NCBI GenBank assembly: GCA_021324655.1
Contig: JAJPIP010000061.1
Coordinates: 1 to 64,000, forward strand
Length of the DNA: 64,000 nt
Origin: Pseudomonadota bacterium
GTDB lineage: Bacteria; Chloroflexota; UBA5177
Reading direction: 5' to 3'
The notes beneath the pieces were generated by a model that was not told the origin of the DNA, searched no databases, and saw only the letters and a list, made by a program, of their open reading frames with translations. This document shows positions 9,917 to 22,516 of this stretch, piece after piece (the stretch's first letter is position 1; each line of letters starts with the position of its first letter). The translations under genes were made by a program, and so were the position numbers.

Positions 9917-10292
9917 CCCAAGTAAGCAGGGTGATCGCGTGCGCGGAGGTGCACGAGGAAAGTCCGAGCTCCGTAGAGCAGGGTGCTGGGTAACACCCAG
10001 TGGGGGCGACCCCAAGGAAAGTGCCACAGAAACATACCGCCGGCATCCGCCGGTAAGGGCGAAATGGTGAGGTAAGAGCTCACCGGCAGCCGGGTGATCG
10101 GCTGGCCGGGCAAACCCCATCTGGAGCAAGACGAATAGGAAGGTGCGGCGCTTCGGCGCCTAAGGGCTGCTCGTCCGAGGCCTTCGGGTAGCGTCGCTTG
10201 AGGCGGCGGGCAATCGCCGTCGTAGATAGATGATCACCACCGGCCGCGCCGTAAGGGCGGTCGGGACAGAACTCGGCTTACGGCTTACTTGG
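9917..10292 (+). ncRNA. rnpB: RNase P RNA (bacterial type A)
   Basis: This is the catalytic RNA of RNase P, which trims tRNA 5' ends. It shows the universally conserved pieces in order: GAGGAAAGTCCGAGCTCC (P3-P4 side), the internal ACAGAA, GCAAGACGAATAGGA, and the closing ACAGAACTCGGCTTAC. The ends pair as the P1 helix (CCAAGTAAGC at 9918-9927 with GCTTACTTGG at 10283-10292). Length of about 375 bases fits type A. The 3' strand of P1 overlaps the stop end of the neighbouring minus-strand gene. Confidence 0.97.
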
Positions 10293-10521
10293 ACTCCCCA
10301 GAGGGACCTCCCTGTGGGGATTCGTCTATTTCCGGCACGGGTTCCTGCTTCGCCCGGCCCTCCATGGCGAGGCCGGCGACAAAGGCGAGCAGACCAACTA
10401 TCAGGAAAACCATCGCCAGCACCGTCAGCGCGGGCGTCGAGCGCGCCGTGACCGCCTGAACCAGGAGGATGACGGCACCGACGATGACAGCGAGACGGCT
10501 ATACCAGACGATCTCATGCAT
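10285..10521 (-). CDS. Small two-helix membrane protein, unknown
   Basis: A 78-residue protein with two hydrophobic segments (about residues 8-26 and 32-53) and an acidic, proline-rich tail. No family recognised. The stop codon lies inside the P1 helix of rnpB on the opposite strand. The upstream region is shared with the divergent cysteine desulfurase. An ATG six codons upstream (10539) is possible but would run further into that gene's start. Confidence 0.6.
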   Translation of the reverse strand: MHEIVWYSRLAVIVGAVILLVQAVTARSTPALTVLAMVFLIVGLLAFVAGLAMEGRAKQEPVPEIDESPQGGPSGESK

Positions 10522-10560
10522 GGCGCCCGATCGTACCATCGGGTGCTACAGTTGGGCACG

Positions 10561-11718
10561 GTGGATGGCCCGATCTACCTCGATTACAACGCGACGACGC
10601 CGGTCGACGACCGCGTCGTCGCGGCCATGATGCCCTACTTCACCACGCGGTTCGGCAATGCCTCGAGTGCGCATGCCTACGGGATCGAAGCGCGGCGTGC
10701 TGTGGAAGAGGCACGGGCCCGCGTCGCTGAACTCATTGGGGCGTGTCCCGACGAGATGATCTTCACGCAAGGCGGCAGTGAGAGTGACAACCTGGCGTTG
10801 AAGGGAATAGCCTTCGCGCGGTGGCCCGCAAGCACCCACATCGTCTCGAGTGCGGTCGAGCATCCCGCCGTCCTCGGCACTCTTCAGTACCTGCATGATC
10901 GATTTGGGTGTAAGTTTACGATCGTGCCGGTTGACGCCTTCGGGATGGTGTCCCCTGATGCCGTGAAAGGCGCCCTGCGTCCCAACACGGCGCTCGTCAG
11001 CATCATGCACGCCAATAACGAGGTCGGGACCGTGAATCCGCTTAGAGACATCGCTGAAGTCGTCCACGCCGCGGGGGCCCTCCTCCATGTCGACGCGTCG
11101 CAGTCCGCAGGAAAGATGGACGTGGACGTTGACGGGTTGGGCGCCGACCTACTCACCATTGCCGGCCACAAGTTGTACGCACCGAAAGGAATCGGGGCCC
11201 TGTACCTACGCCGAGGGGTGTTCATTGACCCGCTGGTTCATGGCGGTGGGCAGGAAGGCGGCCGGCGCGCCGGCACCGAGAATGTTCCTTACATCGTCGC
11301 GCTCGGAGCCGCGGCGACAATCGCTCGGGACGAGCGACCGGAGGAGGAGCGACGTCTCACCCGCCTCCGCGACGCGCTGCACGATTTGTTGTCGTCACAG
11401 GTGCCGGGCCTGTCGCTGAACGGGCATCCGACACTGCGGGCGCCCGGGACTCTGAATGTCAGCTTCCCGCATGTGGCCGGCCGCATGGTGCTCGACCTCA
11501 CGCCCGGCGTGGCCGCTTCCACGGGTTCTGCCTGCCACTCGGCCGCCGGCGAACCGTCGGGAGTGCTCGATCTCATGGGCCTGTCTCGTGAGCGGGCGCA
11601 GGGAGCCGTGCGCCTTTCCCTGGGCAGGTGGACTACCCAGGACGATATCGAGGGTGCGGCGTCTGCGCTTGCTGCGGGGTATTTTCAAGCGCTCGACTAC
11701 GTCGGCCTCGCGGGCTAG
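10561..11718 (+). CDS. Cysteine desulfurase (NifS/IscS family)
   Basis: A 385-residue PLP enzyme that would take sulfur from cysteine for Fe-S cluster or thio-cofactor synthesis. It begins YLDYNATTPVD, a NifS-family signature. It has the PLP-contacting His in SAVEHPAV, the Schiff-base Lys in TIAGHKLYAPKG, and the sulfur-carrying Cys in STGSACHSAAGEPS, inside the long mobile loop of the IscS/NifS (group I) type. The start is weakly marked: GTG 10561 is taken because homology begins at once, but GTG 10543 or ATG 10516 is possible. No iscU/sufU neighbour. The stop overlaps the trpEG stop on the other strand. Confidence 0.9.
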   Translation: MDGPIYLDYNATTPVDDRVVAAMMPYFTTRFGNASSAHAYGIEARRAVEEARARVAELIGACPDEMIFTQGGSESDNLALKGIAFARWPASTHIVSSAVEHPAVLGTLQYLHDRFGCKFTIVPVDAFGMVSPDAVKGALRPNTALVSIMHANNEVGTVNPLRDIAEVVHAAGALLHVDASQSAGKMDVDVDGLGADLLTIAGHKLYAPKGIGALYLRRGVFIDPLVHGGGQEGGRRAGTENVPYIVALGAAATIARDERPEEERRLTRLRDALHDLLSSQVPGLSLNGHPTLRAPGTLNVSFPHVAGRMVLDLTPGVAASTGSACHSAAGEPSGVLDLMGLSRERAQGAVRLSLGRWTTQDDIEGAASALAAGYFQALDYVGLAG

Positions 11719-13871
11719 TCCGGCGCAACCGGCGATAGCGCAAGGCGGCTCACCACGGTCTGAATCAACTTCAGGCCGACGTTGTCTTCCATTGTCAGGA
11801 TGGACTCGGGGTGGAATTGCACCGCTGCCATCGGCAGGTCGCGATGCTCGATCGCCATGATTGCTCCATCCTCGGAGCGCGCGGTTATCAGAAGGTCGGC
11901 CGGTAGATTGTCGGCGTCGGCGTACAGCGAGTGATATCGGCCGACCCGAAATGTGGACGGGAGACCGCGGAGCAAGCGACCGCCCTCGACGACGACTCGG
12001 GATCCCTTGCCGTGCACGGGGTAGTCAAGCACGTCCAGCCTGCCCCCGCAATATTCCACTAGCCCTTGGAGGCCGAGACACACGCCGAAAACCGGGATCC
12101 CGCGCACGGCCGCCGCCCCGATCGTGCCGGCCACGTCGAAGTCCTGCGGACAGCCGGGGCCGGGGGAAAGGACGATCAAATGAGGCCGCAGCGCATCAAG
12201 GTCGTCCCGAGGGAATCCGGAGCGCCACGTCACGACGTCGGCGCCGGTCTGGCGAATATAGTTGGCGAGCGTGTGGACGAATGAATCCTCGTGATCGACG
12301 AGCAGCACGCGCCGGGCCGTTCCGGCCTGTCCACCACCGACTATCTCTGTGTTCTCGTGATCCGGACGCCGGATGGCGTCCAGCAATGCGGACGCTTTCA
12401 TGCGGGTCTCCGCCTCCTCGCTCTCCGGGTCGGAGTCGAACAGCAGAGTCGCGCCGGCCCGCACCTCGGCCACTCCGTCCTTGATGCGGATTGTCCGCAG
12501 CGTGAGTCCCGTGTTCATATTGCCGTCGAATCCGATGAGGCCGACCGCTCCTCCGTACCATGCGCGCGGCGACTTCTCGTGCCGCTCGATGAACCGCATC
12601 GCCCACGTCTTGGGGGCGCCGGTCACCGTTACGGCCCACGTGTGGGAAAGAAAGGCATCCAGGGCGTCGAACTCGGGGCGCAGCCGGCCTTCCACATGAT
12701 CGACCGTGTGGATGAGGCGGGAGTACATTTCGATCTGCCGGCGGCCGATGACCCGCACGCTCCCCGGCACACAAATCCGGGACTTATCGTTCCGGTCTAC
12801 ATCGGTGCACATCGTCAACTCGGACTCATCCTTCGCCGAGTTCAAGAGTTCCTGGATCTGCTGAGCGTCGCCAATAGCGTCCTGTCCGCGGGCGATGGTG
12901 CCGGAGATCGGGCAGGTCTCCACCCGCGAACCATCGACACGGACATACATTTCCGGTGAGGCACCCACCAGATACTCCGCGTCGCCGAGATTGATCAAAA
13001 ATCCGTAGGGAGCCGGGTTGCGCCGCCGCAGGCGCTCAAACAGAGTAGATGGAGGTGCGCTGCATGGCTCAAAGAACGTCTGCCCTGGAACGACCTCAAA
13101 AAGGTCTCCACGTCGAAACGACTCTCTCGCCACGGCGACCATAGCCGCATACTCGCCCGGCAAATGGTCTCCGGGGCTTGGGGGCCGGCGAGGACCGGCC
13201 GAGGACGTGGCAGAGGTGTCACGCCGCAGACCGGCGGTGGAACGATCGGCCACGGCGAACTCATACCGGCGGAGTTCGGCGCGCTCTCGCTGGTGGTCGA
13301 CCACGACAATCTCGTCGGGGATATAGAGGACGAGATCGCGTTGATCCGACGGTCGCGGCAAGCACAGGTCGATGGGCTCGAATTGGAAAGCGAGATCATA
13401 CCCGAATGCGCCGTACAGGCCCAGATAGGGATCTTCAACGCTGTGGAACAGATCAACCAGCACGCGAATGAGAGAAAACACCGAGGGCTGCCGGCTCCGC
13501 TGCTCCTCCGGAAAGCGACCCAGCGGCTCGCGGACCGTCCCGCGTACTGAAGTGGCGCTCACCTCGACGTGCGATACGGCCTCACAGGTCCGGACAGCGG
13601 AAGCGATGGCCGCCAGCAGAAGGGCCCCGCGCTCGTTCAGAGCGTCCACTCGGAAGTCGCGGCCGCGCGCGGTGACTTGCACGGGCGGGTCGACGAATCC
13701 TATGTCCCAGCGCGTATAGCGCCCCGGATACTCGTAGCTGGAGGCCAGCAGGACTCCGCGACGCTCGTTCAGAGCCAGCACGATATGATCGATGGCCCCG
13801 TCGACCGGCAACGGGTCTATGGCTCGATCGACGGTGATTCCTCCCGCGGTTCGATACTGCCGGTTGCTCAT
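11715..13871 (-). CDS. trpEG: Fused anthranilate synthase (TrpE-TrpG)
   Basis: A 718-residue single-chain anthranilate synthase that converts chorismate and glutamine to anthranilate, the first step to tryptophan. The TrpE part (to about residue 510) has PISGTIARG and DVDRNDKSRICVPGSV. The glutamine amidotransferase part (about 525-718) has its nucleophile in FGVCLGLQG and the His-Glu pair in VQFHPES. This one-chain layout resembles the Rhizobium/Azospirillum TrpE(G) clade (TIGR01815). It is the last gene of the aromatic operon, overlapping aroH by ATGA. The other trp genes are not in the window. Confidence 0.95.
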   Translation of the reverse strand: MSNRQYRTAGGITVDRAIDPLPVDGAIDHIVLALNERRGVLLASSYEYPGRYTRWDIGFVDPPVQVTARGRDFRVDALNERGALLLAAIASAVRTCEAVSHVEVSATSVRGTVREPLGRFPEEQRSRQPSVFSLIRVLVDLFHSVEDPYLGLYGAFGYDLAFQFEPIDLCLPRPSDQRDLVLYIPDEIVVVDHQRERAELRRYEFAVADRSTAGLRRDTSATSSAGPRRPPSPGDHLPGEYAAMVAVARESFRRGDLFEVVPGQTFFEPCSAPPSTLFERLRRRNPAPYGFLINLGDAEYLVGASPEMYVRVDGSRVETCPISGTIARGQDAIGDAQQIQELLNSAKDESELTMCTDVDRNDKSRICVPGSVRVIGRRQIEMYSRLIHTVDHVEGRLRPEFDALDAFLSHTWAVTVTGAPKTWAMRFIERHEKSPRAWYGGAVGLIGFDGNMNTGLTLRTIRIKDGVAEVRAGATLLFDSDPESEEAETRMKASALLDAIRRPDHENTEIVGGGQAGTARRVLLVDHEDSFVHTLANYIRQTGADVVTWRSGFPRDDLDALRPHLIVLSPGPGCPQDFDVAGTIGAAAVRGIPVFGVCLGLQGLVEYCGGRLDVLDYPVHGKGSRVVVEGGRLLRGLPSTFRVGRYHSLYADADNLPADLLITARSEDGAIMAIEHRDLPMAAVQFHPESILTMEDNVGLKLIQTVVSRLALSPVAPD

Positions 13872-14218
13872 GACTCACCCGCGAGATCAGGACGGAGCGC
13901 GCGCGCCCCACCCAGATAGCAGTGGTGAACCGGTCCACGACCCTCTACATGCAGCAGCACCCGGAGGCAACGTTCGAGCGCGCCGGGTACCGGTACTTCC
14001 TGCATGTCAAGCATCGGCACGTCCCAGCCCATGGCTCGCGCCCCCCGTGCCGGGAAGACGGCGTCGAGGTCAGGAGTCAGCGTGAAGAACATGCTGATGG
14101 TATCCCGGGGGCCGACGCGGTTGGTCCGCGCCACTTCCGCCAGCAATTCCTGGGTCGCGGCCGTGATGGCGTCGTCGGTGTTCTGTTCGACGGTGATGGC
14201 TCCCCGAATCGCCCGCAT
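13868..14218 (-). CDS. aroH: Monofunctional chorismate mutase, AroH class
   Basis: A 116-residue enzyme that converts chorismate to prephenate at the Tyr/Phe branch. It matches the Bacillus AroH trimer type: it begins RAIRGAITVEQNT, with the active-site Arg in the first residues, and has the later motifs TPDLDAVFPARGAR and MQEVPVPGALERCLRVL. It overlaps aroQ upstream and trpEG downstream, each by a shared ATGA, so translation is probably coupled. Confidence 0.93.
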   Translation of the reverse strand: MRAIRGAITVEQNTDDAITAATQELLAEVARTNRVGPRDTISMFFTLTPDLDAVFPARGARAMGWDVPMLDMQEVPVPGALERCLRVLLHVEGRGPVHHCYLGGARALRPDLAGES

Positions 14219-14655
14219 CAGTCGGCCTCCAGGAGGTGGAGAAGGGTATCGAGTGCGGCGAGGTAGCTATACCACCCGAATCCCGCAACCTGGCCACGCG
14301 CGACCGGCGCGATAACGGACTGGTGGCGAAAGTCTTCACGGGCGGCCGGCACTGACATATGGACTTCAACCACAGGGTAGTCGACGGCGGTGATCGCGTC
14401 ACGCAGCGCATAGGCGTAGTGCGTCAGCGCCCCCGGGTTGAATAGGGCCCCGTCCGCCCAACCGATGGAGTCTTGCAGGGTATCGATGAGCGTTCCCTCG
14501 TGATTCGTCTGGAGTATCCGGAGCTGCGCGCGGTTCACGGCTCGTGCTTCCAGGAGACGGTTGATGTCATCGAGCGTCGTGGTCCCGTACACATCCGGCT
14601 CACGCCGGCCGGTGAGATTCAGATTCGGTCCGTGCAGAACCAAGATATTCTTCAC
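14218..14655 (-). CDS. aroQ: 3-dehydroquinate dehydratase, type II
   Basis: A 145-residue enzyme for the third shikimate step. It begins KNILVLHGPNLNLTGRREP with the lid Arg, has the catalytic Tyr in EPDVYG, the substrate loop FNPGALTHYAYALRDA, and the catalytic His in VEVHMS before REDFRHQSVIAP. Start GTG 14655 is fixed by the motif beginning immediately and by its GTGA overlap with the aroKB stop. Confidence 0.95.
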   Translation of the reverse strand: MKNILVLHGPNLNLTGRREPDVYGTTTLDDINRLLEARAVNRAQLRILQTNHEGTLIDTLQDSIGWADGALFNPGALTHYAYALRDAITAVDYPVVEVHMSVPAAREDFRHQSVIAPVARGQVAGFGWYSYLAALDTLLHLLEAD

Positions 14656-16214
14656 GCGCGCACTCCTGGCGATGCGCCGAGCGCCGACGACAAGTCGGTG
14701 AGGGCAAGCGCACGCAGCGTCCCGCGGCCGATTCGCTCGGGCACGGCCAGGGTGACCGAATCTCCAGTTCGCTTCTTGTCGTGGCCCATGGCGTGCACGG
14801 CGACAGCCGCGTCGAGATCCGGGGCGCGCGCAGGAAGCTCGAACGAATCGAGCAGCTCGCGCAGAATTTCGCCCACTTCCGACTCCGTCCAGCCGCACGT
14901 CCGGGCCACAGAGACTTCGGCGCTCATGCCAATGGCCACGGCTGCTCCGTGCGGCAGCCGGTACTCGCTCGCCGCTTCCAGCGCGTGACCGACTGTATGG
15001 CCAAAGTTCAGGAGCATGCGCTCACCTCGCTCGAATGGGTCAGCGCGCACCACGTCCGCCTTCAGCCGCGCAGCTTGTTTGATCACGGAGTTCCCATCCA
15101 CGAGCGCCTCGAGACCGCCCAGCGACCGAAGGTCGGCCACGAGTGAGGGAGAGCACATCAGGGCGATCTTTATGATCTCGGCGGCGCCCCACGCCAATTC
15201 GGACGAGGGAAGGGTCGCCAGGGTGTCGCTGTCGATGGCGACGACGGTCGCGGGGTAGAAGGCCCCGATCAAGTTTTTGATCCCACCAAAGTCGAACCCG
15301 ACTTTGCCGCCGATCGCCGCGTCGGCCTGGGCAAGGAGAGTCGTCGGAACGAGTGCGAGCATGGTTCCACGCATGTAAGTCGCAGCCACGAATCCGGCGA
15401 GGTCACACACGACCCCGCCACCGACACCGACGACGAGATCCGATCGCTGTAGGCCGAACTCGAGTGCCTCCTGGTACGCGGCGTGGATGCTTTGAGCCGA
15501 CTTGTATGCCTCGCCGGCAGGAATAATGACTGTCGCGACGTCAGCCGTGTCACGCAATGACGATGCCACCCGCTCCGCGTGCCCGTGCGCCGCCACGTTA
15601 TCGTCGGTCACGATGAGACAGCGGCCGGGTTTCTTGGCACCGAGGAGAGATGCTAGCTCGGCTGCGGCGCCGGACCGGACATAGATAGCGCTCTTGGTGT
15701 GGCGGGTGAACGGAACCACGGCCGCCGGAAGGCCAAGGGCGTCGGCAACAGCATCCGCGGCGCCTTCCGGAGTTCGACCATCGGTATCTACCTGCATGAG
15801 CGTGTCGTACACGGACCGGCGCGTCTCCAGCAGACGCCGCAGCGCGCCGCCTCCGTCGAGAAGGGGTCGATCCGGTCCCGTCCGGATCCTCTCATGCAGG
15901 GTTTCGACGGACGCCGTGAGACAGACCAGATACTTGTCCGCCAGGAGCTGGCGATTGCGATCGGCCAGAATCGTTCCCCCGCCGAGCGCGACTACGCGGC
16001 CGTGACCCGGCGCCAGGTCCGCGAGCACCTTCGACTCATGTTCCCGGAATGCCTCCTCTCCGTCCTGTCGGATGATCTCAGCCGGCGTCCGACGGGTTCG
16101 GGCAGTGATCTCATCGTCCAGGTCCACGAAGTCCAGGCCATACCGGTCCGCCAAGATTCGTCCGACCGTTGTCTTGCCGGTTCCCATGAAGCCGGCCAGC
16201 ACCACATCTCTCAC
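14652..16214 (-). CDS. aroKB: Shikimate kinase - 3-dehydroquinate synthase fusion
   Basis: A 520-residue two-enzyme fusion. Residues 1-165 are shikimate kinase, with P-loop GFMGTGKTT, DLDDEI, GGGTI and the RPLLDG lid. Residues 175-520 are 3-dehydroquinate synthase, with GGGVVCDLAGFVAATYMRG, the metal-ligand Glu in WGAAEIIKIAL, and His residues in FGHTVGHALE and GHDKK. It covers steps 2 and 5 of the shikimate pathway in one chain; an AroKB fusion is also known in Thermotoga. Start GTG 16214 overlaps the aroC stop (GTGA), and its stop overlaps the aroQ start in the same way. Confidence 0.95.
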   Translation of the reverse strand: MRDVVLAGFMGTGKTTVGRILADRYGLDFVDLDDEITARTRRTPAEIIRQDGEEAFREHESKVLADLAPGHGRVVALGGGTILADRNRQLLADKYLVCLTASVETLHERIRTGPDRPLLDGGGALRRLLETRRSVYDTLMQVDTDGRTPEGAADAVADALGLPAAVVPFTRHTKSAIYVRSGAAAELASLLGAKKPGRCLIVTDDNVAAHGHAERVASSLRDTADVATVIIPAGEAYKSAQSIHAAYQEALEFGLQRSDLVVGVGGGVVCDLAGFVAATYMRGTMLALVPTTLLAQADAAIGGKVGFDFGGIKNLIGAFYPATVVAIDSDTLATLPSSELAWGAAEIIKIALMCSPSLVADLRSLGGLEALVDGNSVIKQAARLKADVVRADPFERGERMLLNFGHTVGHALEAASEYRLPHGAAVAIGMSAEVSVARTCGWTESEVGEILRELLDSFELPARAPDLDAAVAVHAMGHDKKRTGDSVTLAVPERIGRGTLRALALTDLSSALGASPGVRA

Positions 16215-17323
16215 CGCGGGGCCCCGTAGCGTTCGGCGATTTCCGAAATACTGTCCCCGCCAACCTTTTCGAGGAAGGCGTCGGCCATGACGAGAGCAAC
16301 CATGGCCTCCGCGACCACGGACGCGGCGGGAACCGCGCAGATGTCCGACCTCTGATAGGTCGCCCGAGCGGGATTCCCTGTCCGTACGTCGACGCTCTGC
16401 ATGGGAGTGAGGGTCGTCGAGATGGGTTTCATGGCGGCGCGCACGACAACCTGCCCACCGGTCGTCACGCCTCCTTCCAGTCCCCCCGCCCGATTCGACG
16501 TCCGGACGGGCCCGAAGTCGGACGGAACAATCGCGTCGTGAACCCGGGTGCCGGGCGCCAGGGCGTTGGCGAACGCCGATCCGATTTCGACGCCCTTGAT
16601 CGCCTGAATGCTCATGACGGCCTGCGCCAGCCGGCCGTCCAACTTTCGGTCCCACTGCACGTAGCTGCCGAGTCCAACCGGCGCTCCTGCGACCGTCACC
16701 TCGACGATGCCCCCGAGAGTGTCACGGGCTCGGCGCGCTTCGTCAATCGCCGCTACCATGCGCTCCCCGGCAGCGGCGTCCGCCACACGAACCGGTGACT
16801 CTTCGACATGTCGCCGCGCCTCCGGGTCGGACAGATCGGCCGGCTCGGCCGTTACCTCGCCGATCGCCAGCACCTGACTCCAGACGCCGATGCCGAACCG
16901 CCACAAGAGCTGTTTGGCAATTGCCCCAATCGCGACGCGCATCGCCGTCTCGCGCGCGCTGGCTCGTTCCAGCACGGTCCGCATGTCGTCAAGGCGGTAC
17001 TTCTGAGCACCGGCGAGGTCAGCATGTCCCGGGCGCGGAACGGTGAGGACGGGCTTCTCCCGCTTGAGTTGGTTGGGATAGTCGCGATTCTCAACCCTGA
17101 TAGCGATCGGTGCGCCCGTCGTCCTCTCTCGCTCGACACCACCCAGGAACACAACCTCGTCGTGCTCGATCCGTTGCCGGCCGCTGCGTCCGTAACCACC
17201 CTGCCGCCGCCGGAGGTCGTCGTTGATGCGCTCCACGTCCAGTTCCAGACCTGCCGGCATCCCCTCCAGGATTCCGAGGAGCTCCGGTCCGTGCGATTCA
17301 CCGGCCGTCAAGAAGCGCAGCAT
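16211..17323 (-). CDS. aroC: Chorismate synthase
   Basis: A 370-residue enzyme that makes chorismate from EPSP using reduced FMN. It begins LRFLTAGESHGPELLGILEGMPAG, the family start signature. It also has RRRQGGYGRSGRQ, VPRPGHADLAGAQKY, RASARETAMRVAIGA and the C-terminal GLEGGVTTGG. Start ATG 17323 lies behind GGAGG with good spacing; earlier codons are not conserved. It overlaps aroE by 16 bases upstream and aroKB by 4 downstream. Confidence 0.96.
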   Translation of the reverse strand: MLRFLTAGESHGPELLGILEGMPAGLELDVERINDDLRRRQGGYGRSGRQRIEHDEVVFLGGVERERTTGAPIAIRVENRDYPNQLKREKPVLTVPRPGHADLAGAQKYRLDDMRTVLERASARETAMRVAIGAIAKQLLWRFGIGVWSQVLAIGEVTAEPADLSDPEARRHVEESPVRVADAAAGERMVAAIDEARRARDTLGGIVEVTVAGAPVGLGSYVQWDRKLDGRLAQAVMSIQAIKGVEIGSAFANALAPGTRVHDAIVPSDFGPVRTSNRAGGLEGGVTTGGQVVVRAAMKPISTTLTPMQSVDVRTGNPARATYQRSDICAVPAASVVAEAMVALVMADAFLEKVGGDSISEIAERYGAPR

Positions 17324-18132
17324 CTTTTCGCCTCCAGAGCAAGACGGCACGCCTCGCGCATCACGTCGATATTTGGCTCCAGTCCCGTCCACATACGAAA
17401 TGACTCCGCCCCCTGGAAGATCAACATCTCCAGGCCATCCATAACCACGGCGCCTTGTCGTTCAGCCTCTCGAAGGAACGGCGTGGAACGACCGTACACC
17501 AGATCCATAACGACCACTCCCGGCCGCAGTATCGCGCCGTCGGGCAAGGGAGACTGAGCCGCATGGCGCCCCATGCCGAGCGGCGTGCAATTGACGATGA
17601 GATCGGCAGATGCGAGATCGTCGAGCTGCGAGCTGCCAGGAATGGCGCCCAGAGTAGAAAGCCTCTCCACACGTTCCGGGGACCGCGCGTAGACGTGCGG
17701 ACGAATGCCTCGCAGATTCAAAGCGTAGGTCACGGCGCGCGCCGCTCCACCGGCACCCAACACCACCGCGCGCCTTCCGTCAAGCCCAACACGGGCCGAC
17801 TCAAGCGCGCGTTGGAATCCCGCCGGGTCCGTATTACTCGCTTCCACTCGTCCTCCCCGAACGGACACGGTGTTGGCGGCACCCAGCGTCTCCACAATGT
17901 GATCGCGCACATCGACCAGCGCCACAACGGTTTCCTTGTGGGGAATAGTCACATTGAAGCCGCGGTATGCATGGCTCAGGTCTGCGAAGCGAGCCGTGAG
18001 GTCGTGACATGAGACCCTCTCGGCCTGATACTCCGCGGAAATGCCGGCGGCCCTGAAAGCCGCATTGTGCATGGCAGGCGACAAACTGTGCGAGATCGGG
18101 TCGCCGATCACCGCATAACGATCAGCCGACAT
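17308..18132 (-). CDS. aroE: Shikimate dehydrogenase
   Basis: A 274-residue NADP-type dehydrogenase that reduces 3-dehydroshikimate to shikimate. The substrate domain has VIGDPISHSLSPAMHNAAF and the catalytic Lys in NVTIPHKE. The nucleotide domain has VVLGAGGAARAVTYAL and a C-terminal GLEMLIFQGAESFRMWTG. ATG 18132 is chosen because the conserved sequence begins there. It overlaps the aroA stop by 11 bases and the aroC start by 16. Confidence 0.95.
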   Translation of the reverse strand: MSADRYAVIGDPISHSLSPAMHNAAFRAAGISAEYQAERVSCHDLTARFADLSHAYRGFNVTIPHKETVVALVDVRDHIVETLGAANTVSVRGGRVEASNTDPAGFQRALESARVGLDGRRAVVLGAGGAARAVTYALNLRGIRPHVYARSPERVERLSTLGAIPGSSQLDDLASADLIVNCTPLGMGRHAAQSPLPDGAILRPGVVVMDLVYGRSTPFLREAERQGAVVMDGLEMLIFQGAESFRMWTGLEPNIDVMREACRLALEAKRCCAS

Positions 18133-19393
18133 CGATCGTCCCTCCCAGACGATGGAGATCGGCGGCGAAGCCGGGATACGACACGTCCGCCACCTCAACT
18201 CCATTTACGACGGTCTCTCCATCCGCCCGCATTCCGGCGACCGCTCCCATCATGGCCAGCCGGTGATCCCCGTGGCTTTGGATGGTTGCGCCGCGGAGGC
18301 GAGACGGGCCGTCGATCACAAATCCGTCGTCCAGCGGAACGATGGAGGCGTCCAGCCGGCCGAGAATCTCCGCGACGGCCAGGATGCGGTCGGTTTCCTT
18401 GACTCGCAACTCCCGCGCGCCGCGTATGACGGATCGGCCCTCCGCCTGCGTCGCGAGAAGAGCCAAAAGGGGAATCTCGTCAATCAGCGACGGGACGTCC
18501 CCAGGTTCGATAAGCAGGGGGCTTTGTACTCGACCGCTGACTCTAATATCGCCGACCGGCTCCCCCAGCCTCTCGCCTCCCGTCCGGATCTCAACGTCGG
18601 CTCCCATCCGCTGGATGCCGCGAAAGAACCCAAGCCGATGGGTGTTCAGGGAGACGTTGCGAATGGTCACCTCCCCGCCGCTCAGGAGGGCAGCCGCGGC
18701 CGCGAAGGCAGCGGATGACGGATCACCAGGTATGTCAAATCGGAAACCTGGAACGATACCGGGCCGAATAGTCACGTCCTTGCCGTCAAGCGTTATGTCG
18801 AGCCCCAGGGCCGATAGTAGCCGCTCCGTATGGTCACGCGTCGGGATGGGCTCGGATACCGTCGTTTCCCCCTCGGCGTCGAGGCCCGCCAGCAGGACCG
18901 CGGACTTCACCTGGGCGCTCGCCACCGGGAGCCGGTATCGGATGCCGGTGAGTCGACGGCCCCGTATTGACACAGGAGCATGACCGTCCGACGTCTCGAT
19001 CTCCGCGCCCATACGGGCGAGCGGTTCCACCACGCGCTGCATGGGGCGGCGCGAGAGGGAGTCGTCTCCCGCCAGACACGATGAGAAAGGGCGTCCGGCG
19101 AGGATTCCGGCCAGCAGGCGCATGGTGGTGCCGGAGTTTCCCGCGTTCAACGGAGCGACCGGCGCTCGCAGGCCACCATGTACGGTGGCTCGGTTCTCGG
19201 CAAGTGTGACGTCGGCACCGAGAGTCCGCAGACACGCAACCGTCGACATCACGTCCGCTCCGTCCGGAACGCCGGCGATGACGGACTCACCGTCGGCCAC
19301 GGCCGCCAGCATCAAGGCGCGGTGGGCAAGGGATTTGTCTCCCGGCACCGACGCGGTACCGGCTACCTGTGAGGGTCGCAGGACCCACCTCAC
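18122..19393 (-). CDS. aroA: 5-enolpyruvylshikimate-3-phosphate synthase
   Basis: A 423-residue enzyme that joins PEP to shikimate-3-phosphate. It has the N-terminal PGDKSLAHRALMLAA, the PEP-site motif NAGNSGTTMRLL (closer to the Bacillus-type than to the E. coli NAGTAMRPL form), DDSLSRRPM, and C-terminal RVKETDRI and SHGDHRLAM. Start GTG 19393 overlaps the tyrA stop (GTGA). Confidence 0.95.
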   Translation of the reverse strand: MRWVLRPSQVAGTASVPGDKSLAHRALMLAAVADGESVIAGVPDGADVMSTVACLRTLGADVTLAENRATVHGGLRAPVAPLNAGNSGTTMRLLAGILAGRPFSSCLAGDDSLSRRPMQRVVEPLARMGAEIETSDGHAPVSIRGRRLTGIRYRLPVASAQVKSAVLLAGLDAEGETTVSEPIPTRDHTERLLSALGLDITLDGKDVTIRPGIVPGFRFDIPGDPSSAAFAAAAALLSGGEVTIRNVSLNTHRLGFFRGIQRMGADVEIRTGGERLGEPVGDIRVSGRVQSPLLIEPGDVPSLIDEIPLLALLATQAEGRSVIRGARELRVKETDRILAVAEILGRLDASIVPLDDGFVIDGPSRLRGATIQSHGDHRLAMMGAVAGMRADGETVVNGVEVADVSYPGFAADLHRLGGTIDVG

Positions 19394-20199
19394 GGCGCCA
19401 CCTCGGCGGCGTTCAGTCCCAGCAGCCGCTCTATGGACGCTGCGTCTTCGCGCTCCAGCGCCGCCAGCAGTTCATCGAGACGGTCGCGATACCGGCGCGT
19501 CACGCCGGAGATCTCCGCGGCGTTCGCCAGCAAGACATCGCGCCAGAGAGTTACATCGCTGTCCGCCAGGCGCGTCATGTCGAGATACCCCGGACCGATC
19601 AAGGGAGAATCGGGCGGCACGCAGACTCGTAGCAGGCTGGAAAGGATCTGCGGCAAGTGACTGGTCCCGGCCACGATGCGGTCGTGCTCGCGCGCATCCA
19701 TGACCACTGGTCTCGCACCGGCCTCGGACACGAGGGCGGAAGCGGCGGCCAGGAATGCCGGGTCGGTGGCCGGACCTGGCGTGAGAACAAACGGGCGATC
19801 GCGGAAGAGCGCCGGGTCGGCTGCTTCCGGGCCGGATTGCTCGGAGCCAGCCAGCGGATGACCGCCCACCATACGGTGCGCCCCGGGACAGATCGACATC
19901 GCCTCAACCACGGCTCCCTTGGCGCTTCCCGTATCGATAATGATGGTGTCGGCCGGCGCCGCGGCGTCGACCGCGGGCAGGAGGCCGGCAATGCGGAGGA
20001 CGGGCGCCGCGAGAATCACCACCTCGCTCGTCGCCGCCAGCTCCCGTAGCGGAGAGGCCGATTCGATCCAGCCGAGCTGGAGAGCGCGGGATTGCCTGCC
20101 CGGCGCAATGTCGTAGCCGGAAATCTCGTGGCCGACAAGTCCCAGGGCGCCGCCCAGCGAGCCTCCGATCAAGCCGAGCCCCACGATGCCGATGCGCAT
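19390..20199 (-). CDS. tyrA: Prephenate dehydrogenase
   Basis: A 269-residue NAD(P)-dependent enzyme that converts prephenate to 4-hydroxyphenylpyruvate, the tyrosine branch. It has an N-terminal Rossmann motif GLGLIGGSLGGAL, the GGHPLAGSEQSGP substrate loop with catalytic His, and a C-terminal helical domain. No ACT regulatory domain follows. Its ATG overlaps the aroF stop (ATGA). No prephenate dehydratase (Phe branch) is in this operon. Confidence 0.94.
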   Translation of the reverse strand: MRIGIVGLGLIGGSLGGALGLVGHEISGYDIAPGRQSRALQLGWIESASPLRELAATSEVVILAAPVLRIAGLLPAVDAAAPADTIIIDTGSAKGAVVEAMSICPGAHRMVGGHPLAGSEQSGPEAADPALFRDRPFVLTPGPATDPAFLAAASALVSEAGARPVVMDAREHDRIVAGTSHLPQILSSLLRVCVPPDSPLIGPGYLDMTRLADSDVTLWRDVLLANAAEISGVTRRYRDRLDELLAALEREDAASIERLLGLNAAEVAP

Positions 20200-21212
20200 C
20201 AGAGAGTTCGTCCTACCGCCGCGGCGAGCGGACGCAATTCCTCCATCAACGTGCGGAAGCGGTCCGGCCGCAGCGCTTGTGCCCCGTCGGAGAGCGCGTC
20301 CTCCGGACGGCAGTGGACCTCCACGATGAGTCCGTCGGCACCCGCGGCGATGGCTGCCTTCGCGATCGGCGCCACGAGATTCCACTTCCCTGCCGCATGG
20401 CTAGGATCGACGATCACGGGCAGGTGCGTCAGACTCTTGAGAACCGGCACGGCGCTGATGTCCAGGGTGAAACGGGTGGAGTCTTCAAAGGTGCGGATGC
20501 CGCGCTCACAGAGAATGACGCGTTCGTTGTGGTTTGCGAGTATGTACTCGGCAGACATGAGCAACTCCTCGATCTTCGCGCTCATGCCGCGCTTCAGAAG
20601 TACGGGGTGCCCGGAGCGGCCGACCTCTTGCAGCAAGGCAAAGTTCTGCATATTGCGAGCACCGACCTGGAGCATGTCCACGTGGCCCGCGACCAACTCG
20701 ACGTCTTCTGCCGACAGAACCTCGCTGACGACAAACAGCCCGAGACGGCGTCGTACGTCGTCCAGCATCTCCAGCGCCCGGACTCCCAGACCCTGGAAAC
20801 TGTACGGAGACGTGCGAGGCTTGAACGCACCGGCTCGCAGGATGCGCACGCCGGCCTCTTTCATCGCTACCGCGGTTTCCCACAGCTGCTCTTCGCTCTC
20901 CACAGCACAGGGGCCCGCGATCACGACGATTCCGGTATCTCCAAACGCCTGTCCATTGAGGGGCACGACCGTGCTTTTGGGACGAAAGTCGCGGCTGCTC
21001 AACTTGAACGGCTTTGACACCGGGACCAGGCGATCCACGCCGGGGAGCAACTCAAGACCGGTGAGGCGCTCCGGAGTCAGATGACCGATGATGCCGATGA
21101 TCGTCGTTTCGTCTCCCTCCGACAAATGAGGCCTCAGTCCGAGCTCCTGTACGCGCGCCACAACGCCCTCGACCTGCTGTCGGGTCGCGTGACTTTGCAT
21201 AATGATGATCAC
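20199..21212 (-). CDS. aroF: DAHP synthase, type I-beta with N-terminal ferredoxin-like domain
   Basis: A 337-residue enzyme that condenses PEP and erythrose-4-phosphate, the committed step of aromatic synthesis. Residues 1-75 form the ferredoxin-like domain that gives Tyr/Phe feedback in the Thermotoga enzyme. The barrel has AGPCAVES, RAGAFKPRTSPYSFQG, GARNMQNF, LLKRGMSA, ILCERGIRTFE, VIVDPSHAAG and GLIVEVH, with the metal Cys, His, Glu and Asp ligands. Start GTG 21212 follows GGGAGGCAGGAG and gives the same N-terminus and length as the Thermotoga type. First enzyme gene of the operon, directly behind the attenuator-like leader. Confidence 0.95.
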   Translation of the reverse strand: MIIIMQSHATRQQVEGVVARVQELGLRPHLSEGDETTIIGIIGHLTPERLTGLELLPGVDRLVPVSKPFKLSSRDFRPKSTVVPLNGQAFGDTGIVVIAGPCAVESEEQLWETAVAMKEAGVRILRAGAFKPRTSPYSFQGLGVRALEMLDDVRRRLGLFVVSEVLSAEDVELVAGHVDMLQVGARNMQNFALLQEVGRSGHPVLLKRGMSAKIEELLMSAEYILANHNERVILCERGIRTFEDSTRFTLDISAVPVLKSLTHLPVIVDPSHAAGKWNLVAPIAKAAIAAGADGLIVEVHCRPEDALSDGAQALRPDRFRTLMEELRPLAAAVGRTL

Positions 21213-21248
21213 GTCTCCTGCCTCCCTACTGACGATCGCCAACAAATC

Positions 21249-21288
21249 CTCCAAAAAGAGAGGCCGGAGGCGTTTCCGCCTCCGGCCT
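21249..21288 (-). terminator. Intrinsic terminator-like hairpin in the aro leader (attenuator)
   Basis: On the minus strand AGGCCGGAGGCG (21288-21277) pairs perfectly with CGCCTCCGGCCT (21272-21261) around a GAAA tetraloop, giving 12 GC-rich pairs. CTCTTTTT follows. It sits between the leader reading frame and the aroF ribosome-binding site. That is the place of an attenuator rather than of an end-of-operon terminator. Confidence 0.85.
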
Positions 21289-21289
21289 T

Positions 21290-21340
21290 GAGGGTATGAC
21301 GCTGCGGGCGGCTCTCAACGAGCCGTCAGCTCACACCCTC
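21290..21340 (-). promoter_or_regulatory. Leader hairpin overlapping the leader-peptide stop codon
   Basis: GAGGGTGTGA (21340-21331, minus strand) pairs with TCATACCCTC (21299-21290): ten pairs with one G-U. Inside lies a second stem, CGGCTC with GAGCCG (21325-21320 and 21314-21309). The outer stem starts at the last base of the leader stop codon, so a ribosome at the end of the leader would block it. The outer stem ends one base before the terminator stem. A classical competing antiterminator pairing is not obvious by eye. Confidence 0.6.
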
Positions 21341-21450
21341 TATGTCCACCAGTAATAGCAGCCGTTGCCGGCCGGGCTCTTCGATACCACGGTTCTTTCC
21401 GTACACCAGTCGAGTACCATAGTAAAGCATTCCGGGAAGGCAAGCCGCAA
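21340..21450 (-). CDS. Aromatic operon leader peptide with Tyr-Tyr-Trp-Trp control codons
   Basis: A 36-codon reading frame before aroF. AGGAGG (21465-21460) lies nine bases before a TTG start at 21450. An in-frame ATG at 21420 would give 26 codons. Both versions end Cys-Tyr-Tyr-Trp-Trp-Thr-stop, with a further Trp earlier (residue 15 of the long form). Just before the Tyr codons the RNA can form CGGCCG-GCAA-CGGCUG, a six-pair hairpin with one G-U. The control codons match the branch products of the operon's own tyrA and trpEG. By analogy with trp, his and pheA leaders, ribosome stalling at scarce Tyr- or Trp-tRNA should relieve the downstream terminator. Not seen as a protein; inferred from layout. 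Confidence 0.8.
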   Translation of the reverse strand: MRLAFPECFTMVLDWCTERTVVSKSPAGNGCYYWWT

Positions 21451-21463
21451 GGGACGAAGCCTC

Positions 21464-21841
21464 CTATATGGGGTCGTGTGTCACCCCGACCGGCTTCCCC
21501 TGCTCGATCTCGATCATTCGCTCGATCGCGCGGCGCAAGTGTGGAATGACAATCGAGCCGCCGACGACCAGAGCCACGTTCATTGCTTCGATCATTTCGT
21601 CCCGGCTCGCCCCGCGCTCGTGACTCTGAATCACGTGATAGGTGACGCAGTCGTCGCAGCGCAGGACCAGGGACGCAACCAGCCCCAGAAGCTCCTTGAT
21701 CTTCAGAGGCAGGACCCCGGGTTCGTAGGCCTGATGGTCGAGCGCAAAGAAGCGCCTGATGTTGAGATTGGCACTGCCCAACACGAGCTCGTTGAGCCGC
21801 TCGCGCTCCGCTTCCCACTCCTCCACTGACAGCTGTGACAT
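21464..21841 (-). CDS. AhpD/carboxymuconolactone decarboxylase-like protein
   Basis: A 125-residue all-helical protein with the AhpD-type core RCDDCVTYHVIQSHERGAS, that is CxxC followed by His. In AhpD proteins this gives thiol-dependent peroxidase support; in CMD proteins it is a decarboxylase. Substrate unknown. Start ATG 21841 has GGGAGAG at good spacing. The stop codon is fused to the AGGAGG that opens the aro leader frame, so transcription may run from here into the aro operon. It is divergent from a TetR gene, its likely regulator. Confidence 0.85.
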   Translation of the reverse strand: MSQLSVEEWEAERERLNELVLGSANLNIRRFFALDHQAYEPGVLPLKIKELLGLVASLVLRCDDCVTYHVIQSHERGASRDEMIEAMNVALVVGGSIVIPHLRRAIERMIEIEQGKPVGVTHDPI

Positions 21842-21875
21842 TGGAACTCTCCCGATTGATTCGTATGGTGGACCC

Positions 21876-21895
21876 GGTATACTTTTGGGTATACT
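21876..21895. promoter_or_regulatory. Direct repeats / operator and -10 element between CMD and TetR genes
   Basis: GGTATACT occurs twice, at 21876-21883 and 21888-21895, twelve bases apart. Each copy contains the palindrome GTATAC. The second copy supplies TATACT seven bases before the TetR start codon, fitting a leaderless tetR transcript. A regulator bound here would block both divergent genes. Confidence 0.6.
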
Positions 21896-21901
21896 ACATC
21901 T

Positions 21902-22516
21902 ATGACTGCCTACCTTGATCCCGGCCGTCGAGAGCGCAAGCGGCAGGCCCTGCATGAAATGCTACTCGTCACGGCCAACCAATTGTTCCGTGAGCGCGGC
22001 ATCGCCGGAACGACCGTCGACGACATCGCCGAGGCGGCGGACGTGGCCAGGCAGACTGTCTTCAACCACTTTCCATACAAAGAGGCCTTCGCCCTCGAGT
22101 TAGGCGCGGCGGTTATTCATCACGCGGGCGAGCGCGCCCAGGCCCTGCTGGAAGCGGGCATGCCGGCCCTGGACGTCGTTCAGCTCGTGGGCGAGTGGGT
22201 TCTGGAAGCGGCGACGCACGACCCAGACGTCGCGATTGTCGTGGCCCGGGAATTGCTCCACTCGGACCCGGTGCGCGCGGCGCGCGCGGCGACACACGTA
22301 CCCCTCTGCGAACTTTTGCAAGCCCTGCTGGAACAGGCGCGGGAAGAAGGCGGCATCCGAGAATCGTTCCCAACGGACGTCGCCGCAGCCCGTTTTAGTT
22401 CGGTGATCGCGAGCCTGACGGCTCAGGTCGCCTGCCGCGAGGCCGGCGCGTTACGGCGCGACCTCGCCATTTCATTCGACATGTTATTGCACGGAATAGT
22501 GAAGAGGAGCGCATGA
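21902..22516 (+). CDS. TetR family transcriptional regulator
   Basis: A 204-residue regulator. The N-terminal helix-turn-helix spans about residues 20-65 and includes RERGIAGTTVDDIAEAADV and the recognition helix before TVFNHFPYKEA. The C-terminal ligand domain is a helical, Ala-rich region without obvious ligand clue. It probably represses itself and the divergent AhpD-like gene through the GGTATACT repeats. The ATG is seven bases behind TATACT with no ribosome-binding site, suggesting a leaderless mRNA. The stop overlaps the next start. Confidence 0.9.
   Translation: MTAYLDPGRRERKRQALHEMLLVTANQLFRERGIAGTTVDDIAEAADVARQTVFNHFPYKEAFALELGAAVIHHAGERAQALLEAGMPALDVVQLVGEWVLEAATHDPDVAIVVARELLHSDPVRAARAATHVPLCELLQALLEQAREEGGIRESFPTDVAAARFSSVIASLTAQVACREAGALRRDLAISFDMLLHGIVKRSA

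Follow-up and report, generated by a model that had tools for sequence, protein, structure and literature searches.

A predicted aromatic-codon, attenuator-like leader upstream of aroF and its family across the Chloroflexota

The question raised by this locus was whether the short reading frame and the two hairpins that precede a nine-gene aromatic operon form a regulatory leader, which amino acids such a leader would sense, and how it would act on transcription. The sequence analysed (the window) was a 64-kb stretch of genome G000: positions 1 to 64,000 of contig JAJPIP010000061.1. The frame, both hairpins, the U-tract and aroF, all named in the initial annotation, are present in the minus-strand sequence. 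The features are listed below in approximate 5' to 3' order on that strand, each with the evidence used.

21465-21460, minus strand: AGGAGG (sequence)
21450 and 21420, minus strand: starts of the longer frames of the leader, TTG 21450 (36 codons) and ATG 21420 (26 codons) (sequence)
21438..21443, minus strand: putative -35 box TTGCCT of the leader promoter (aligned with TTGACA/TTGACT of relatives)
21416..21421, minus strand: putative -10 box TATGGT, 16-nt spacer (alignment with relatives, promoter scoring)
21340..21390, minus strand: predicted leader peptide ORF, GTG start, 16 codons, VVSKSPAGNGCYYWWT (frame read from the sequence)
21346..21357, minus strand: control codons TAT TAC TGG TGG (Tyr Tyr Trp Trp) (conserved in the alignment of 85 leaders)
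21342-21340, minus strand: TAG stop of the leader ORF (sequence)
21290..21340, minus strand: hairpin A, an outer helix and an inner stem-loop (folding; covariation in 6, 12 and 85 sequences)
21261..21288, minus strand: intrinsic terminator, 12-bp stem with 10 G-C pairs, GAAA loop (sequence, folding, covariation)
21253..21260, minus strand: U-tract CTCTTTTT (sequence)
20199..21242, minus strand: aroF, which opens the operon and encodes a DAHP synthase with a ferredoxin-like domain (Pfam PF00793 and PF18152; alignment)
11715..20385, minus strand: tyrA, aroA, aroE, aroC, aroK-aroB fusion, aroQ, chorismate mutase aroH (CM_1) and trpE-trpG fusion (Pfam)

The predicted leader is a short ORF carrying consecutive end-product codons, and its 3' end reads TGC TAT TAC TGG TGG ACA TAG on the minus strand. 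The control codons end 5-14 nt upstream of hairpin A, the 5' arm of which begins with the G of the TAG stop codon; lying close to the leader stop, this helix could be opened by a ribosome that stalls or terminates. A single unpaired base separates it from the intrinsic terminator, which stands between the leader ORF and the first structural gene. Folding of the 217-nt leader region gave -105.3 kcal/mol, against -80.9 +/- 4.9 kcal/mol for shuffled sequences (z -4.9). A strict scan (a short ORF with four or more aromatic residues in six close to its end, and a strong terminator after it) matched 19 of 86 Chloroflexota aroF upstream regions and 0.5% of 3,532 arbitrary positions, the background covering the 64-kb window and the fetched loci. 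On both strands of the window, the aroF leader was the sole match.

Alignment with relatives placed a likely promoter just upstream of the leader ORF. Promoter scores of at least 9/12 were obtained directly upstream in 48 of the 85 leaders compared; the window scored 8/12 and its leader promoter did not pass a generic promoter scan. The starts proposed initially (TTG 21450 and ATG 21420) fall in or upstream of this likely promoter and are probably wrong, so that the 16-codon GTG frame from 21390 is more likely the translated leader. GTG 21390 sits 25 nt past the -10 box, about like the ATG of the relatives. The gene upstream, of the carboxymuconolactone-decarboxylase family (21464-21955, minus strand), stops 20 nt short of the leader promoter, and its stop codon overlaps the AGGAGG read earlier as the ribosome-binding site of the leader.

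All nine genes of the operon, from aroF to the trpE-trpG fusion, were identified via Pfam. The start of aroF is TTG 21242 by homology (GTG 21212 is possible). Gene order is identical in G002, G003 and G005, and G001 and G004 have contigs that break off within the operon. Of the Phe branch, previously described as absent, a prephenate dehydratase gene lies elsewhere in the window's genome (G000:C67).

The five nearest operon-bearing genomes (G001-G005) share the layout of leader, long hairpin and GACCGGAGG-type terminator. Their leaders end in HYYWFNTGHMVTVL (HYYWFN) in G001, NYYWYMTGV in G002, RYYWFYRGIT in G003, YYYWFYRGMT in G004 and IWYWRRKGMT in G005. Loss of the Tyr/Trp codons or of the hairpins in close relatives had been put forward as a check on the leader; aromatic codons and both hairpins are retained. 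Covariance model R1, built on six sequences (G000-G005), detected more aroF leaders in other families (E 1e-14 to 3e-6), and it also gave many weak genome matches resembling bare terminators, so model R2 (twelve sequences; threshold E <= 1e-4) was used instead. At this threshold R2 matched 101 of the 400 Chloroflexota genomes, many genomes being MAGs and covariance-model E-values being rough. The predicted element is thus a member of a family spread over the Chloroflexota; the kinship-group genomes other than G002 are presumably Chloroflexota. When R2 was run on 80 aroF loci from many phyla, no match was obtained except L032, which is the locus of G002. No relevant Rfam family matched at gathering score in the window or in 12 further members, and matches at loose E-values were rejected as below the gathering scores.

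Eighty-three R2 matches were read (G000-G005 and G192 were left out; 5 of the 83 were training sequences). Aromatic genes lay downstream in 81: 76 matches stood directly before aroF, three before pheS, one before tyrA-aroF and one before the gene of an AroG-type DAHP synthase. The other two, L302 and L304, had unrelated genes downstream and were set aside as false positives. In G064, a second copy of the element (L248) was found upstream of an AroG-type DAHP synthase gene, and therefore both DAHP synthase types of that genome carry it. In the pheS-linked members (L284, L300 and L307), Phe is the sole aromatic residue near the hairpin: the leaders have F-S-F in G144, and F alone after H-V-H in G315 and G369. 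Tandem aroF pairs were seen in some Chloroflexota (G317:C108, G183:C163 and G282:C12).

Conservation of the structure was assessed in an alignment of 85 leaders (A6) fitted to the covariance model. Both sides had changed in 27 of the 29 pairs of hairpin A (outer and inner) and the terminator, pair counts gave 92% paired in register versus 35-53% when slid, and the strongest covarying column pairs were nearly all pairs of the structure. With six leaders, RNAalifold returned both helices with compensatory change in 13 of 29 pairs, and the pair counts were 93% in register versus 34-48% slid. Hairpin A directly adjoins the terminator (0 nt) in 47 of the 85 leaders; 20 leaders have a spacing of 1 nt and no other exceeds 4 nt, that of one leader computing as -1, a one-base overlap of the two. 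The stop codon begins within hairpin A in 84 of the 85 leaders, and the window is the outlier, its stop codon beginning before the hairpin. With codons and hairpins conserved and covarying in relatives, the proposal of an attenuator-like leader ahead of the whole operon was upheld.

Counted back from hairpin A, successive codons are aromatic in 79, 78, 75, 68, 45, 23 and 18 of the 85 leaders; the four nearest are thus aromatic in 80-93%, and the most conserved position is the closest (3-5 nt away). Further upstream than the seventh codon, aromatic codons occur in just 2-5 of the 85, the signal being gone by ~24 nt. The reading frame taken was the one richest in aromatic codons, a choice that inflates these counts somewhat. 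Where one of the four closest codons starts with T, it encodes Tyr, Trp or Phe in 300 of 303 cases, Ser in three, and never Cys or Leu, which argues for selection on the amino acid beyond a U-rich RNA.

The leader had been proposed as a dual Tyr/Trp sensor, its codons matching the two branches of the operon. Among the 85 leaders, 81 contain Tyr, 77 Phe, 48 Trp and 40 all three; Trp codons occur in 6 of 6 leaders of the window's own group and in about half of the others. Phe stands beside Tyr/Trp in the same-family genomes G001, G003 and G004, all with tyrA downstream (G003 also has trpE/trpG homologues), and leaders of operons with no detected tyrA or trpE still have Tyr, and often Trp. Strict Tyr/Trp specificity is therefore unsupported, and the predicted sensor of the family is pan-aromatic (Tyr, Trp and Phe).

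Alongside the leader ORF, the aromatic selection, the two covarying helices, their abutting geometry, the gene linkage and the promoters of relatives, all borne out by comparison of sequences, we give ribosome-mediated transcription attenuation by aromatic-tRNA charging, taken as a whole, a probability of roughly three in four. RNA polymerase would initiate just upstream of the leader ORF, and a trailing ribosome would translate the leader. With ample Tyr- and Trp-tRNA (in relatives, Phe-tRNA too), this ribosome would clear the aromatic run, reach the stop codon and leave; hairpin A would then close, stacked on the terminator, and transcription would end before aroF. When an aromatic tRNA is uncharged, the ribosome would stall at an aromatic codon 3-14 nt upstream of hairpin A, its leading edge would reach or enter the base of the hairpin and keep it open, and reduced termination would let the nine genes be transcribed. 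Within this scheme, ribosome stalling at the aromatic codons is what we infer; the conservation gradient towards hairpin A favours a stalled ribosome opening its base, and a direct action of hairpin A on the terminator is suggested by the way the two helices abut. That its opening lowers termination is a tentative step, to which we would give slightly worse than even odds.

In textbook attenuation, a stalled ribosome lets a helix form that captures the 5' arm of the terminator. Equilibrium folds with the ribosome-covered part masked were non-discriminating, because E. coli trpL, thrL and hisL all retained their terminators, and duplex and covariation tests were used instead. The duplex test compared duplex energies with those of shuffled sequences, in 17 leaders first and with E. 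coli leaders as controls; the control z values were -4.5 for thrL and -3.5 for hisL (both clear) and -1.3 for trpL (weak). Over the 85 leaders, an antiterminator competing with the terminator scored at chance level (fold z +0.10, duplex z -0.05). Neither the 3' arm of hairpin A nor the 80 nt upstream paired with the terminator above chance, and no covariation of the hairpin A 3' arm with the terminator 5' arm was found. A mutually exclusive antiterminator helix sharing terminator bases defines the trp/thr/his type. As no overlapping antiterminator rose above chance, the Chloroflexota element is, by its predicted structure, attenuator-like but lacks one of the traits that define the classical family. 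The initial remark that no simple antiterminator was obvious, and that the switch may be unusual, agrees with the fold, duplex and covariation results.

Hairpin A might itself be a steric antiterminator, its formed helix blocking full closure of the abutting terminator in the RNA exit channel. An early stall would then leave hairpin A free to form (read-through) and a ribosome at the stop codon would cover its 5' arm (termination), which would still be attenuation, with hairpin A working in the opposite sense. The narrow spacing of the helices (0 nt in 47 of the 85 leaders, 1 nt in 20 others and never more than 4 nt), the stop codon inside the 5' arm in nearly all leaders (compare the thrL stop, which abuts the antiterminator arm) and a search of 85 leaders that gave no other antiterminator all speak for it. 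A stall at the most conserved codon, 3-5 nt away, would however disturb hairpin A and favour termination, the wrong sense, and termination is reported to be better at tandem hairpins than at single ones (PMC8355165). We consider this explanation unlikely; it had ranked first until codon conservation proved strongest right next to hairpin A.

A classical trp-type switch with a weak antiterminator is a little less probable again. Once hairpin A was opened, GCCCC at its end could pair with GGAGGC in the terminator 5' arm, one A being bulged. This 4-5 bp pairing, or a related one, appears in masked folds of G000, G001, G004 and G005 when the terminator 3' arm is forbidden, but it does not outscore shuffled sequence in either the 17 or the 85 leaders, is conserved nowhere outside the family, and would face a 12-bp terminator.

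TnaC senses Trp and turns on a catabolic operon, and the nascent leader peptide could likewise be an arrest peptide that senses free aromatic amino acids. Many relatives do have Pro-Pro-Ala-stop or Pro-Ala-stop after the aromatic run, but this ending is missing from the window and its family, residues upstream of the run are unconserved, the pheS leaders alter the codons, and the logic of TnaC, switching on catabolism, is the opposite. No TnaC-like conserved arrest sequence was found in the leaders, only the aromatic class being conserved while flanking residues vary, and we hold this explanation to be highly improbable. Finally, a chance aromatic run beside the ordinary terminator of the upstream carboxymuconolactone-decarboxylase-family gene, with no regulation, could appeal to the longer leader frames overlapping the end of that gene and to short frames being common, but as a general account it is refuted by an element that recurs in 101 genomes, helices that covary, the linkage to aromatic genes and the selection on the codons. 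Loss of function in the window's genome alone is possible.

The preferred reading, attenuation by aromatic-tRNA charging, resembles several known systems. As in E. coli thrL and ilvGMEDA, both multivalent attenuators, a single leader has codons for more than one amino acid. The thrL stop codon adjoins the antiterminator arm, and a strong antiterminator there shares terminator bases (z -4.5), whereas the Chloroflexota element has none. Upstream of aroF in Acidobacteriota (L064, L076, L096 and L104), a different Phe/Tyr/Trp-rich leader ORF (ASSFSYRFWHFA-like) with a terminator was found. These leaders have a classical-looking overlapping antiterminator (CGAGUGGcGUU with AACCCACUCG), which in the same kind of test was placed identically in 4 of 4 (z -0.6 to -3.5), and they gave no match to R2.

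The AroR element of Corynebacterium glutamicum aroF is described as a leader peptide with Phe-Tyr-Phe codons acting by ribosome-mediated attenuation (Neshat et al., 2014, via PMC11802643; PMC4046766); according to the review it responds to Phe limitation and not to Tyr, with no report of Trp codons (PMC11802643). Both systems place aromatic codons in a leader directly before a DAHP synthase gene, aroF; unlike AroR, the window leader has Tyr and Trp (Phe in relatives) and precedes nine genes including tyrA and trpEG, the comparison covering codons and genes. The uORFC-13-1 motif of Acholeplasma is a uORF with Phe codons upstream of aroF, adjoining an intrinsic terminator (PMC8632094); it differs in phylum and in having Phe only, and is likened here by description. 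The three members that precede pheS recall the E. coli pheST attenuator, a leader before the Phe-tRNA synthetase genes that is named in the review (PMC11802643), again by description.

The family was absent from Rfam 15 and from the open-licence papers searched (subscription papers might describe it). The claim that such a leader was undescribed is weakened: aromatic leaders at aroF were already known from AroR and from uORFC-13-1. In the open-licence literature searched, no account was found of a sensor for three amino acids, Trp among them, that governs a full supraoperon. What appears new is the variant with no terminator-sharing antiterminator. It could represent a phylum-wide class of attenuator, in which an abutting helix (0-4 nt), opened or allowed by the ribosome, tunes termination and Tyr, Trp and Phe are sensed jointly for the whole chorismate pathway; this broader proposal we put forward as plausible, though short of probable. 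A likely regulator is thereby named for the point at which aromatic amino acid synthesis begins in the Chloroflexota, where no described RNA control was found, and a single leader may monitor each of the three end products of the branched pathway. The pheS copies point to codons re-tuned to the downstream gene, and the missing antiterminator poses a testable question: how an abutting helix alters intrinsic termination.

Elsewhere in the window, an RNase P RNA of class A (Rfam RF00010) was identified at 9919-10295 on the plus strand, adjoined by a gene (10516-11718, plus strand) that we take by eye to encode a cysteine desulfurase.
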